Part shown: positions 888-5,426 of the stretch, one piece after another | How the letters are laid out: each line of letters opens with the position of its first letter | Numbering within the stretch: the first letter of the stretch is position 1 | DNA from: an uncultured Eubacteriales bacterium | Lineage (GTDB): Bacteria; Bacillota_A; Clostridia; Christensenellales; Aristaeellaceae | NCBI GenBank assembly: GCA_944333375.1 | Contig: CALVKX010000143.1 | Coordinates: 1 to 5,426 of the forward strand | DNA length: 5,426 nt | Reading direction: 5' to 3' | Program-made: the position numbers and the translations under genes | The notes under the pieces: model-generated | Database searches by the model: none | The model's input: only the letters and a program-made list of their open reading frames with translations | What the model was told of the DNA's origin: nothing

Positions 888-2915
888 TCAGCGCTTCAGA
901 TATCCGCTCTTTTCCCACAGGGCAATCCAATCCTGCAGACGATTGAGCAGATCCGCGTTGCAGCGGGTTTTCTGCATCATGTCAATCAGCTGCACCACGG
1001 CTTCGCCGTTGGTGGTGGAGGCCAGGACCTTTCGAATCGTCCGCAGGCCTTCCTTCTGCTCGTCGCTCAGGAGCATATCGTCCTTTTTGGTGCCGCTGAG
1101 CTGCAAATCAATCATCGGATAGACCGGATCGCTGGCCTGATGTCGGCACAGGAACAGCTCCATATTGGCCGTACCCTTGAATTCTTCGAAGATGATATCG
1201 TCCACGCGCGAGCCGGTTTCCACCGCGATGGTGGCGACCACTGTCAGACTTCCAGCGTCACGGGTATTGCGTGCCGCGCCAAAGAAGCGCTTGGGGCGCA
1301 CCAGCGCCGCAGGGGTTACGGTGTTGGTCATGGGGCGTCCGCCCTGCACCAGCGCCGCCTGATAGGCGCGCGTCAGCTTGGTGAGGCTGTCCAGCAGGAT
1401 GACCACATTCCTGCCGTCCTCCACCAGTCGCTGAGCGCGCTCCAGCATGGTTTCGCTCACGCGCGTCTGCGTTTCGGGCGCGTCGGCGAAGGTGGAGGCG
1501 AATACTTCTGCGTCTACCGATTCACGGATTTCCGTCACTTCTTCCGGAGCGATGTCAATCAGCAGCATCAGCACTTCGGCGTCGGCGTCGTTTCGCTTGA
1601 TCGCGCGGCAGATATCCCGGAGCATCAATAGCCGTCCGCTGTCGGGCGGAGCGACGATCATCGCACGCTGACCAAAGCCGATGGGCGCGATCAGGTCCAC
1701 GAGACGGATGGCCATGTCCTCGTGGTCCTGTTCGCTTTCCAGCACGATGCGCCGGTTGGGATACACAGGCACCAGCTCGTCAAAGGAAAGCCGGTCCGGA
1801 TTCTCCACCGGCTCATGGCCGTTGAGACGATCTACTGTCAGCAACGCGGCAAATTTGTCGCTGTCTCGCTGTGCACGTGCCGTACCTTCCACGGAGTCGC
1901 CTGTGCGCAGGCCAAAGCGACGGATCTGGGCCATAGAAACATAGATATCTTTTTTCCCGGGCAGCAGCGTATGGCCGCGCAAAAAACCGTAACCGTCCGG
2001 GAGGATCTCCAGAATGCCGCTGGCGGGCTCCCCTTCCTGCACCTTCAGCAGATCGGGAATCTGGCCTTCCTCGGCCTGAGCGGCAAATTGCGGATCGCGC
2101 GCCATGCGATAAAGCGCGTCGTTGCAATGTCCTTCCGAGACGGGAGGCTGATAGCCGCTGCGCTGCTGCTGGTATCCAAAGTTGCCAGCAGGCCTGTAGC
2201 CGCTTTGCTGATATCCACCGCGCTGCTGATATCCGCCATAGCCCTGCTCACGAGCGCCATACTCGCCGCGGTTCTGATAGGGTGTGCGCTGCGGCGCAGC
2301 GCGGTAGCCCAGCCGATATCCATCCAGCTTGGGCACGTTTTCCTGAACCGGCGGACGCGAATACTCCGACGCCTGTCTGCGCGGCTCCTGGGCTTCCTCC
2401 TGCTTCACGGGCGCCGGGCGTACAGGCGGCCCGAAGCGGTTGACCGTGCTCCCGGCGCGCTGCTGCCAGGCAGGCGTCTGCGCGTTATCGCGCGACGTGC
2501 TGCGTGCCTGCCAAGCCTGTCGATAAACCGGGCGGAAGCCGCTCTGTTCCTGCGGGTTGTTCCAGGGCCGAAATCCCAAGCCGCCAGGCGAGACAGCGGT
2601 TACATCCGCGGAAAGAGCCGCCTCCTGCAGCTTTTCCTGCGTCTCAGCGGGCTTTTCATCCGTTTTTATCGGGTCGGGTTCCAGCACCGGCACCGCTTCA
2701 CGAGCCGTTTCCGTCAGTTCCGGCGCAGCCGGCTCCACCAGCGCCTCAACCGGCTGCGGCGCCGCCGATTGATTGGACGGCTCATCGGCCAGCACCTCCG
2801 AGAGGCGAGCCACGATTCCGGACTTGTCAATTCCCGCGCTCAACTTCACGCCGTTTTCCTTTGCAAGCTTTCGCAGCTGAACAACCGTCATCGCTTGCAG
2901 CTGTGCGTTCTGCAA
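888..2915 (-). CDS. rho: Rho-family transcription termination factor with degenerate ATPase site
   Basis: 675 residues, much longer than E. coli Rho (419). Order: Rho_N SAP-like helices (about 9-43); acidic/Pro-rich stretch (about 44-115); disordered region with a Tyr/Gly/Gln/Arg-rich core (198-256); cold-shock-like RNA-binding domain (about 298-370, PDGYGFLR at 306-313, QIRRFGLRTGD); RecA-like hexamer ATPase (about 380-675) with APPDSGRLL (422-430), LLIDIAPEEVTE (451-462), ILLDSLTKLTRAY (506-518), RPKRFFGAARN (540-550) and EEFKGTANMEL (577-587). Family role: hexameric RNA-dependent helicase that ends transcription in the cytoplasm. Oddity: Walker A GKT is GRL (R428, L429), the catalytic Glu and next Arg are I455 and A456, the arginine finger is K610, and a second conserved Arg is P597; Walker B D509 remains. 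Motor activity is therefore doubtful although the fold seems intact. The start is TTG, set by AAGGAGGG six bases upstream; ATG codon 9 is too far from it. It lies 50 bp after the methyltransferase, probably in one transcript. Family sure, activity uncertain. Confidence 0.93.
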   Translation of the reverse strand: MQNAQLQAMTVVQLRKLAKENGVKLSAGIDKSGIVARLSEVLADEPSNQSAAPQPVEALVEPAAPELTETAREAVPVLEPDPIKTDEKPAETQEKLQEAALSADVTAVSPGGLGFRPWNNPQEQSGFRPVYRQAWQARSTSRDNAQTPAWQQRAGSTVNRFGPPVRPAPVKQEEAQEPRRQASEYSRPPVQENVPKLDGYRLGYRAAPQRTPYQNRGEYGAREQGYGGYQQRGGYQQSGYRPAGNFGYQQQRSGYQPPVSEGHCNDALYRMARDPQFAAQAEEGQIPDLLKVQEGEPASGILEILPDGYGFLRGHTLLPGKKDIYVSMAQIRRFGLRTGDSVEGTARAQRDSDKFAALLTVDRLNGHEPVENPDRLSFDELVPVYPNRRIVLESEQDHEDMAIRLVDLIAPIGFGQRAMIVAPPDSGRLLMLRDICRAIKRNDADAEVLMLLIDIAPEEVTEIRESVDAEVFASTFADAPETQTRVSETMLERAQRLVEDGRNVVILLDSLTKLTRAYQAALVQGGRPMTNTVTPAALVRPKRFFGAARNTRDAGSLTVVATIAVETGSRVDDIIFEEFKGTANMELFLCRHQASDPVYPMIDLQLSGTKKDDMLLSDEQKEGLRTIRKVLASTTNGEAVVQLIDMMQKTRCNADLLNRLQDWIALWEKSGYLKR

Positions 2916-2965: not shown

Positions 2966-3982
2966 TCATACCTTTCGTGCAATCACCACGTCCCGGTCAA
3001 CCGCCTGTTCTACCCAGTGGGAAAAGTCATCATACGGCGGATGACTCATGACCTCCAGCCCCGCCCTCTCCATTTGCGCGGAAACCTCGGAACGGCGCAA
3101 GGTGTTGAGATTAAACGCAAACGCCACGGCTCCGCCCTTTTTGAGCGCGTGTACGCAACCGGGCAAAACGCGCTCGACAAGCCTGCTCAGCGAGGAAACC
3201 GTGCCGCCTTCCCTGGGCGCGTGCTGCACGCCATAAGGCAGGTCGCATATCGCCAAGTGACAGCTTTGGGGACGGACCAGCGCCGCCAGTCCGCCCGCGT
3301 CCCCATGAATCAGGCGAAGGGAAAGCGGGCTTGCGCGCATGGTTTGAGCGTCCGGCGCAAGCGCGTACTCGCTCCACCTGGCGCTTCCTCCCCATGGCAG
3401 AGTCAGCGCACCCGATGTGCGGCGATGCTTGACGCGATGCAGTTTCAGCGACCTCGCCAGGTAATCTTCCGCTTCCCGAAGCGCCTTCGCGTCCATATCA
3501 ACGCCGATTGCATTGTAGTTTTCGCACAAAGCGCACATCAGCGTCGTGCCCTTCCCGCACATGGGGTCCAGCACGCTCAGCGAGCCCGGCTCACGCGCAA
3601 ACGCAGACGCCGACCTGGCGCAGTGCAACATCAGATACGTGAAGTCCGCGTTGGTTTTCCCTTTATATTTGAGCACATGGGGCAGATCCTCCGGCATCCA
3701 GCCGGGGGGGTTGCGGCGCAACGGCTGCAGCGTTCCGTCCTCCCGAAGCCTCGCAGCCAAACAGATGGCCGAATGTCCTGAGACTGCCTCCCAAGCTGCC
3801 GCTTCCAGCTCCTGCGCGTCAAATACGATAAAAGGCTCGTTCGCCAGATATTCCACCCTTGGCCGTTCGCAGGCAACATTCCAGGCATCAAGGATGCATT
3901 CCAGTTCGATCAATGCCAGCTTTTGCAGGGATTGGCGATAACGAACGTTTGGATGCGGCTTCAAAAGCATCGCGTAGCGCAC
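2966..3982 (-). CDS. SAM-dependent methyltransferase, UPF0020/TRM11-like, probably acting on RNA
   Basis: 338 residues. The C-terminal two thirds is a Rossmann-type methyltransferase: motif I VLDPMCGKGTTL (137-148), the acidic residue after strand 2 in GVDMD (160-164), an acidic HGD at 227-229, and a motif IV-like DLPYG (247-251) in place of the usual (N/D)PPY. These match the group that includes tRNA guanine-N2 methyltransferases (TRM11/Trm14) and the UPF0020 proteins. The N-terminal 100 or so residues are not a THUMP domain that I can recognise, so target RNA (or DNA) is open. A late HPPYDD (314-319) resembles a substrate-site loop but its role is unknown. The start is GTG, with AGAGG five bases upstream; the in-frame ATG at codon 5 would have a 17-base spacing. 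It is the first gene after the promoter at 4051-4079 and lies 50 bp ahead of rho. No membrane segment or signal peptide is seen. Confidence 0.8.
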   Translation of the reverse strand: MRYAMLLKPHPNVRYRQSLQKLALIELECILDAWNVACERPRVEYLANEPFIVFDAQELEAAAWEAVSGHSAICLAARLREDGTLQPLRRNPPGWMPEDLPHVLKYKGKTNADFTYLMLHCARSASAFAREPGSLSVLDPMCGKGTTLMCALCENYNAIGVDMDAKALREAEDYLARSLKLHRVKHRRTSGALTLPWGGSARWSEYALAPDAQTMRASPLSLRLIHGDAGGLAALVRPQSCHLAICDLPYGVQHAPREGGTVSSLSRLVERVLPGCVHALKKGGAVAFAFNLNTLRRSEVSAQMERAGLEVMSHPPYDDFSHWVEQAVDRDVVIARKV

Positions 3983-4050: not shown

Positions 4051-4079
4051 ATTATATCACAGACTGTAAGGATTTGCAA
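4051..4079 (-). promoter_or_regulatory. Sigma-A type promoter for the methyltransferase-rho unit
   Basis: On the minus strand the -35 box TTGCAA (4079-4074) and a perfect -10 box TATAAT (4056-4051) are 17 bases apart. The bases above the -35 box (about 4080-4095) are A/T-rich, as in an UP element. Transcription would begin near 4044 and leave a leader of about 60 bases before the GTG start. It lies directly after the upstream gene's terminator, so a fresh start is needed here. Confidence 0.85.
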
Positions 4080-4111: not shown

Positions 4112-4143
4112 AAAAAAAACCCCGCACGCCGCGGCGTGCGGGG
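4112..4143 (-). terminator. Intrinsic terminator of the ispH-S1 gene
   Basis: CCCCGCACGCC and GGCGTGCGGGG form an 11-bp stem (a 24-bp perfect palindrome at 4120-4143). On the minus strand eight T follow (4119-4112). It begins 11 bases after the TAA stop codon. There is no T run on the plus-strand side, so it acts in one direction. Confidence 0.95.
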
Positions 4144-4154
4144 GAAATACCCAT

Positions 4155-5426
4155 TTACTCGTTGGTCTCGTTCTGAGCAGCCTCGGCTTCCAGAGCCGCG
4201 CCAACAGCCTCGATGTCCACCGGCACGGCTTCCGCGCCGTCATCCTCGTAAACAGGCTGGGGCGCTTCCTCCACGGGAGCGGGTTCGGGCTCCAGCAATG
4301 CGCGGATGCTCAGGCTGATGCGCTTGGCTTCAGGATCGATGTTGAGCACCTTGACATTGACCACATCACCCACATTGACCGCATCCTCCACCTTGTTGAT
4401 GCGGGTCGCTGCGCACTGGCTGATGTGCACCAGGCCGTCGATGCCGGGCTCAAGCTCCACAAAGGCGCCGAACGTGGTGATGCGGACCACCTTGCCCGTA
4501 ACCACAGCCCCGGCGGGATACTTTTCGGGAGCCATATCCCAGGGCTTGGGCTGAAGCTGCTTGAGGCCAAGCTGGATGCGCTCGCGCTCCGGATCGAGGC
4601 TGAGGATCTTCACGTCCACTTCCTGGTCGGGGGAGACGATCTCGGAAGGATGCTTGACATGCGCCCAGCTCAGATCGGTCACATGAATCAGGCCGTCTAC
4701 GCCGCCCAGGTCCACGAAAGCGCCGAAGTCGGTCAGACGGCGCACGATGCCGTGCACGACCTCGCCCTCCTGGAGACGGGCCCAGGCCTCGGCCTTCTTT
4801 GCGGCGGCTTCCTCACGCACCACCGCGCGGCGGCTGGCTACGATGCGGCGCTTCTGCTCATCCATCTCGATGATCTTGAGCTTGAGGGTCTGGCCCACGA
4901 AGTCGCCGATCTTCTCAACGTAGCGGTTGGAGAGCTGCGACGCAGGCACGAACGCGCGAATGCCGTTGACCGTGCAGATCAGGCCGCCCTTGACGACCTC
5001 CTTGCCCACGCCCTCGACATACTCGTTGTTCTCGTGCTTTTGGACAAGCTCCGCGAAGGCCTTGCGGTTCAAGATGTTGCGCTGCGACAGCAAAACGTTG
5101 CCTTCGCCGTCGTTGACCTTGACGACCTCCACTTCGATTTCGTCGCCCAGTTTGACATCCTCCGTCACCAGGTCCTCGCGCTTGATCAGCCCGTCGCTCT
5201 TGAAACCGATGTTGACACAGACTTCGTCGTCGGTGATCTGCACCACGGTTCCCTTCACGGTCTGCCCGGGCCTGATCTTGACCAGAGTCGCTTCCACATC
5301 AGCCATAAAGCTGTCCTTTTCCGCCTCCTCGGTGGAAACCTGCCGGTCCAATTGTTCCTTGTCAGTCATGCGTGTGACAACCTCCTTAAGTGACCAATCC
5401 GGCGTGCTCGCGCCGGCGGTAATTCC
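4155..5426 (-). CDS. rpsA: IspH-ribosomal protein S1 fusion (5' end outside window; S1 part complete)
   Basis: The S1 part starts at an ATG at 5369 and has 404 residues, but the same frame is open to the window edge. Its 19 upstream codons read [19 protein letters not shown], the conserved C-terminal end of IspH (HMBPP reductase, last step of the MEP isoprenoid pathway); the Ser of GAS corresponds to a substrate-binding Ser in E. coli IspH (S269 by my count). The gene is therefore most likely the Clostridia-type bifunctional IspH-S1 fusion. Counting from the internal Met, four S1 domains lie at about 35-97, 118-183, 201-270 and 285-356; the last two carry the typical FGAFV and GLIHV/GLVHIS strands, the second is most divergent. 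A 44-residue acidic tail follows. S1 proteins bind mRNA single strands at the ribosome; Firmicutes forms have four domains rather than six. The Fe-S Cys residues of IspH are outside the window. The fusion is seen as an open frame plus motif; independent production of S1 is inference. Confidence 0.9.
5381..5387 (-). promoter_or_regulatory. Possible internal ribosome binding site between IspH and S1
   Basis: AAGGAGG on the minus strand lies inside the codons for the IspH end (LKEVV) and 11 bases before the ATG that begins the S1 part. The spacing is longer than the usual 5-9, so it could give a modest internal start. Because K-E-V is a natural IspH ending, the match may also be chance. Confidence 0.4.

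Follow-up and report, generated by a model that had tools for sequence, protein, structure and literature searches.

Rho is the textbook ATP-driven RNA motor that stops transcription, and the locus described here raises the question of what a Rho does once the residues of its motor are gone. The window, meaning the whole stretch of 5,426 nucleotides that was analyzed, carries three genes, all on the minus strand. These are a ribosomal protein S1 gene (4155-5369) and a methyltransferase-like gene directly upstream of rho (2966..3982), both assigned by profile matches, and a rho homologue of 675 amino acids with a TTG start and a lost catalytic site (888..2915), identified from the ORF list, profile matches, and alignment. 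An intrinsic-terminator-like hairpin of 10 pairs with a T-run, seen in the sequence after S1 (4120-4143, minus strand), precedes a promoter-like site, TTGCAA-17-TATAAT with an extended -10 (4051..4079, minus strand), which was found by consensus match only and lies ahead of the methyltransferase-like gene and rho. These two genes possibly belong to the same operon. At 11 of 26 loci, with intact and degenerate Rhos alike, rho was immediately preceded by the methyltransferase gene; at the other loci, antisense frames were picked or the gene was not seen. Its family matches were weak in Pfam and NCBIfam, and its best PADLOC match was mad2 (E 4.5e-14). At the window's end (1-305), a 114-base unit is present in 2.7 perfect copies and encodes CEICGEWFEAGNVFRNHQC-type repeats. 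In locus L001, a public MAG contig (CALVNG010000015.1, "uncultured Eubacteriales bacterium") that carries the same rho, the repeat region lies at the C-terminus of a protein of 316 aa (8604-9554) that has two copies, so the repeat copy number differs.

Homology searches matched the product to Rho. The Rho RNA-binding domain (PF07497; residues 299-369; 1809..2021, minus strand, Pfam match) scored 98 bits against a cut-off of 27, and the RecA/ATP-synthase-like ATPase domain (PF00006) scored 61.5 bits against 29.5. The best solved structural relative by sequence was 3l0o (E 9e-102). The protein passed the cut-off of NF006886 (458.3 vs 315) and remained under the curated cut-off of the Rho equivalog model TIGR00767 (454.6 vs 509.45 bits). 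A Rho_N/SAP-like N-terminal segment (2844..2903, minus strand) was matched weakly, below cut-off (E 0.0099). The PADLOC search gave no match for Rho, the PHROGs search gave one weak match (24 bits), and the plasmid search matched 150 records, none covering 80% of the query and the top-ranked one with 48.9% identity.

The protein was aligned with E. coli Rho via the 1pv4 sequence, and E. coli residue numbers are used for the catalytic site. As read from this alignment, the window Rho carries K181D, K184R, T185L, E211I, R212A, R269K, R353P, and R366K. The former Walker A motif (P-loop) is APPDSGRLL (residues 422-430; 1626..1652, minus strand), with K181, K184, and T185 lost, and the former catalytic Glu motif is LLIDIAPEEVTE (residues 451-462; 1530..1565, minus strand), with E211 and R212 lost. 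P597 (1125..1127, minus strand) replaces Arg353, which we take to be the "Arg valve", and K610 (1086..1088, minus strand) replaces Arg366, presumably the arginine finger. The Walker B Asp265 is retained as D509, and K513 is the equivalent of R269 (1377..1391, minus strand). All the residue substitutions listed in an earlier note on this DNA were thus found in the translation and the alignment. Each of the eight changed columns is at least 95% conserved among 114 intact Rhos, so the changes are not due to chance. On these residues, the window Rho would be expected to have lost its ATPase activity.

Errors in reads or frame were considered and rejected. L001, an independent MAG locus, differs from the window Rho at 1 of 675 residues (264), and the cluster representative P0002 differs at three, none of them catalytic. 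P597 and K610 were invariant across 51 aligned clade proteins, and K184 and E211 were gone in 15 of 15 clade rows. A456 was nearly invariant in the same 51 proteins. The next relative after L001 was from Candidatus Limiplasma pullicola (86% identity). Eleven loci with 58-100% identity to the window Rho all lacked the catalytic site, and the former P-loop was variable among them (APPDSGRLL, CPPESGRLQ, TPDGTDSSA, TPEGADGLS, and others). In the 15 full-length rows of the window group, some replacements were themselves conserved, namely P353 and K366 in 15/15 and A212 in 13/15. Among the 114 intact Rhos, 123 columns reach a conservation of at least 95%; the window group keeps 87 of these (in at least 14 of 15 rows) and loses 28. 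The dN/dS ratio was 0.02-0.15 for ten pairs in the degenerate groups; three pairs of intact Rhos gave 0.02-0.06, and synonymous sites were partly saturated. As judged from these codon comparisons, the rest of the window Rho is under purifying selection with its motor residues gone. This bears out the selection proposed in the earlier note, and a pseudogene was rejected on the same ratios.

Rho was also read across the window's family, in which 269 of 308 genomes contain a Rho RNA-binding domain. The reading gave 181 rows from 177 of the 269 genomes, of which 175 were counted and 170 were full-length (ATPase domain coverage of 85% or more) after five fragments (L171, L091, L078, L145, and L187) were dropped. 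G260, G262, and G264 (of G258-G265) were left out of the family rows, and L363-L367 (ATPase coverage 63-71%) and the fragment L368 were read later and stand outside the 170. K184 or E211 was lost in 75 of the 170 rows and both were lost in 20; for single residues, K184 was lost in 37, E211 in 58, and R366 in 80. The complete set of seven catalytic residues was kept in 68 rows. Among the 67 loci read in the order outside the family, all seven were kept in 63/63 full-length rows, and K184 or E211 was lost in 0 of 63, a count that omits four loci (the fragment L207, and L260, L261, and L262). L261 showed an ATPase match of 33 bits and no catalytic residues, and no Rho ATPase was found in L260 and L262; all three have a weak Rho RNA-binding-domain match in frames of about 370-400 aa. 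A reverse pattern was seen in the order outside the family (L193-L259), where the 63 full-length motors are intact and the full primary RNA-site set is present in 19/63.

The altered family Rhos were of several types: the window group; DVN rows, in which K184 is present and a hydrophobic residue stands instead of Glu211; rows without K184 that keep Glu211; and eroded single rows. In L363-L367, the ATPase domain is barely recognizable: it scored 54-84 bits and lacks both the P-loop and the Glu motif. The intermediates L164, L165, L168, and L349 keep GKT or GKS and DER and already contain K269, P353, K366, and an altered Q-loop. Since these intermediates and the window group form one clade (support 100/100), the K269, P353, K366, and Q-loop changes came first by parsimony.

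To place the losses, Rho trees were built without the catalytic columns. In a 212-row tree, which omits seven fragments (the five above, L207, and L261) and two duplicates, all 78 rows missing any of five key residues and all 65 rows with K184 or E211 lost fell inside one 97-row clade; no row outside the clade lacked K184 or E211. A 102-row tree, which also omits ten long-branch rows and includes some of the DVN and intact rows, supported the clade at 100/99. The least numbers of changes on this tree were 6 for K184, 11 for T185, 6 for E211, 7 for R353, 7 for R366, and 2 for D265, and on the 212-row tree 9 for K184 and 9 for E211, counts in which loss is not separable from regain. As a point against leaning on this clustering, the clade makes up 55% of the tree length, so that by a crude reckoning the chance that six losses all fall inside it is about 0.03 per residue. 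These results suggest that motor residues were lost several separate times within one clade. An rpoB tree of 51 genomes contained the same clade (29 genomes, SH-aLRT 99), indicating that Rho was inherited with the genome. One genome, G105, whose Rho (L155) carries E211A and R212P, grouped with the intermediates in the rpoB tree (98) and with the window group in the Rho tree (99/89); if the rpoB placement is right, the site in L155 was lost independently.

The members of this clade share short motifs in the N-terminal region. RFGP (residues 160-163 of the window Rho; 2427..2438, minus strand; motif counts) lies 59-194 residues ahead of the RNA-binding domain, in a region predicted from its composition to be disordered. 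It was present in 74 of 75 motor-dead family rows, the exception being L176, which has no N-terminus on its contig. It was also found in 26/27 partly changed and 12/68 fully intact family rows and in 0/63 order rows outside the family, against a shuffling expectation of at most 0.15 rows per group. On the 102-row tree, 82 of the 83 rows inside the clade carry RFGP, against none of the 19 rows beyond it. The clade row without RFGP, L113, is intact, lies inside the clade, and has neither RFGP nor AWHNP. AWHN was found in 15/16 intact clade rows (basal, 6/7; other, 9/9) and in 50/65 degenerate rows (DVN, 15/24; DEN, 6/7; P-loop-less, 9/10; other degenerate, 20/24), and was absent from 88/88 outside rows with an N-terminus. 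AWHNP was remodelled or lost in the window and intermediate groups (WHN in 0/18), with W-N-N in 6/15 window rows. Because intact basal clade members carry RFGP and AWHNP and the motifs are absent outside the clade, the motifs predate motor loss. The likely order in the window lineage is thus the motifs, then the R353, R366, R269, and Q-loop changes, and then loss of the P-loop Lys and Glu211.

Further N-terminal features were seen in single groups. By alignment, LDGYRLGYRAAPQR (residues 197-210; 2286..2327, minus strand) is almost invariant in the window clade, and its DGYRL core was found in 15/15 window-group rows, 3/3 intermediate rows, and 0 of the other 172 grouped rows. It overlaps a Tyr/Gln/Arg/Gly-rich, prion-like tract defined by composition (residues 200-260; 2136..2318, minus strand). 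In the N-terminal region, the 60-residue stretch richest in Q/N/Y/G/S had on average 72% of these residues in the window group, compared with 37% in the DVN group and 41% and 36% in the intact groups, indicating that the prion-like tract is a feature of the window group. Conserved in L363-L367 are the AWHNP motif, the stretch SSKAPAF, and a helix-like segment at the N-terminus.

We consider it probable that Rho was recruited in this clade as a motor-free RNA-binding scaffold and that its motor then decayed repeatedly. RFGP and AWHNP would have been gained first, in clade ancestors that were still intact, and the motor would have been lost repeatedly within the motif-bearing clade. The protein, assumed still to form a ring, would bind single-stranded RNA statically via its RNA-binding domain. 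The N-terminal motifs may hold a partner, for which RNA polymerase, an elongation factor, a ribonuclease, and the ribosome are candidates, and in the window group the Tyr/Arg/Gln-rich tract could promote clustering. Rho would then act as an RNA-binding scaffold, not as a translocase. The earlier note's proposal of a dismantled site in a selected protein with a non-motor role is supported by the clade conservation, the low dN/dS, and the repeated losses, which together suggest that Rho can do a job needing no motor.

The set of residues that we take to form the RNA site was complete in 66/75 motor-dead family rows, compared with 66/68 intact ones, and lacked members in L363-L367, the five rows with the heaviest erosion. 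RNA binding may therefore not be the kept function everywhere, and the scaffold reading was weighted lower on account of these five rows. When identity to the intact consensus was expressed as the ratio of the RNA-binding domain to the ATPase domain, the values were 1.16 for the window group, 1.06 for the intermediates, 1.39 for DVN, 1.45 for DEN, and 1.60 for the P-loop-less group, and 1.24 for basal intact, 0.98 for other intact family, and 0.75 for order rows. The shift toward a better-conserved RNA-binding domain is thus weak in the window group, below the value of the intact basal rows.

An unlikely alternative is that these proteins are motor-free terminators, in which an RNA-bound ring tethered by RFGP and AWHNP traps the elongation complex and pauses or ends transcription by binding alone, without translocation. 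In its favor, the window group has kept its RNA-binding domain together with much of the protein framework, and such a mode was once proposed for Mycobacterium tuberculosis Rho; however, that Rho is reported in the same paper to need a competent ATPase site for termination (PMC4499133). If motor-free termination were true, the ATP-driven step would be dispensable for one of Rho's ancestral functions. Loss of Rho-dependent termination was looked for in purine content, since Bacilli without rho are reported to show a weaker purine bias (PMC13323073). The purine fraction at fourfold sites of rpoB was 0.266 in the window group (n = 14), 0.371 in DVN (n = 6), 0.428 in intermediates (n = 3), 0.328 in basal intact (n = 6), and 0.377 in other intact genomes (n = 22). 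The window and DVN groups differed from both intact groups at fourfold sites (P = 0.004) and not in overall purine (P = 0.14), with rows that are not independent. In rho itself, again with non-independent rows, the purine content of the window group (0.408) was similar to that of the family-intact rows (0.419, P = 0.74) and differed from that of the intermediates (P = 0.004). Across rpoB and rho, this test gave a mixed outcome, which weighs against the scaffold reading.

It is improbable that the ring is a locked, nucleotide-sensing one, with DVN proteins binding nucleotide without hydrolysis as a structural switch and the window group having lost even that. DVN rows do keep GK, often with T or S, and with the P-loop Lys they may still bind ATP; E. 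coli Rho E211A was reported to bind ATP without hydrolyzing it (PMC4499133). This account leaves the rows without any P-loop, including the window, unexplained.

Slightly less probable still is an altered but working motor that hydrolyzes ATP with other residues. The Walker B Asp is D in 15/15 window-group rows, the R-loop basic residue (acidic in the P-loop-less group) is kept there as R570, and the DVN group retains the P-loop Lys. Against such a motor, the P-loop columns of the window group vary freely (mean 80th percentile of entropy), position 184 is R, G, or S, with Gly or Ser in 6/15 rows, and position 211 is I, V, or A in 15/15.

We regard as very improbable the reading that all of the retained function lies in the N-terminal motifs, as a tether or condensate former, with the RNA-binding domain being lost as well. 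The five rows L363-L367 fit it, keeping AWHNP in 5/5 and RFGP in 3/5 with both ATPase and RNA-site residues changed, but the RNA-site set is retained in most motor-dead full-length rows, as given above. Slow decay of a dispensable Rho drifting to loss is more improbable again. It would accommodate these five rows and the 39 of 308 family genomes in which no Rho RNA-binding domain was found, a figure from which genome incompleteness is not separated; it conflicts with the low dN/dS and with the lack of internal stops in any listed RNA-binding-domain frame.

The number of Rho copies per genome was determined by profile searches. TIGR00767 found one Rho above 390 bits in 11/11 genomes and in 15/15 further ones (26/26), three of which (G014, G034, and G045) have one contig that is nearly genome-long. 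All remaining matches were below 40 bits and, judged by score and frame length, are taken to be ATP synthases. PF07497 gave one match in 11/11 genomes, and no second intact Rho was found in the 26 genomes. Five family genomes had two PF07497 matches. In G250, both copies lack E211; in G209, both keep K184 and E211 with R212, R353, and R366 changed; in G111, both are intact, one being cut; G188 has two fragments; and one of the two copies in G158 was read. The earlier note's suggestion of a partner for a second Rho, taken here as a subunit or regulator acting on an intact copy within one cell, is thus hardly credible, given a single Rho in all 26 genomes and no full catalytic set in either copy of the two-copy clade genomes G209 and G250.

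Taken together, the window gene is best explained as an ordinary single-copy rho, passed on by vertical descent, that encodes a protein no longer working as a motor. Key Rho residues are reported to be mostly conserved across more than 1200 species (PMC4499133), and among the matches listed in a search of open-licence literature, Aristaeella included, we found no paper on a naturally motor-dead Rho. Here, gut-bacterium lineages in nature possess no Rho apart from a motor-dead one; the losses occurred independently several times, and close sister lineages are still intact, which makes the motor-free question directly testable. The N-terminal motifs provide a concrete handle for a partner search. 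For genome surveys, the presence of rho need not mean that Rho-dependent termination is present.

Among known systems, the short-form Rho paralogue of NF041509 is comparable as a Rho-family profile for a named class of exceptions, but the window Rho falls below its cut-off (366.6 vs 628 bits), and it is single-copy and so not a paralogue. Bacteroides thetaiotaomicron Rho, with its phase-separating disordered region, resembles the window Rho in having a long N-terminal region with short conserved motifs, of which the available part of the report names neither RFGP nor AWHNP; condensation is reported to raise its termination activity (PMC13269538), whereas the motor is lost in the window Rho. 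M. tuberculosis Rho shares a long N-terminal insertion and the same motor-free question, a motor-free mode having been proposed and the protein then reported to be a motor; unlike the window Rho, whose site is gone, it keeps the catalytic Glu386 and is reported to hydrolyze ATP (PMC4499133). Compared with the Rhos of E. coli and Thermotoga maritima (TIGR00767, PF07497, and PF00006), the window Rho lacks the P-loop Lys and Thr, the catalytic Glu, Arg212, Arg353, and Arg366, but shares with them the gene, the domain order, the RNA-binding domain, and the Walker B Asp.
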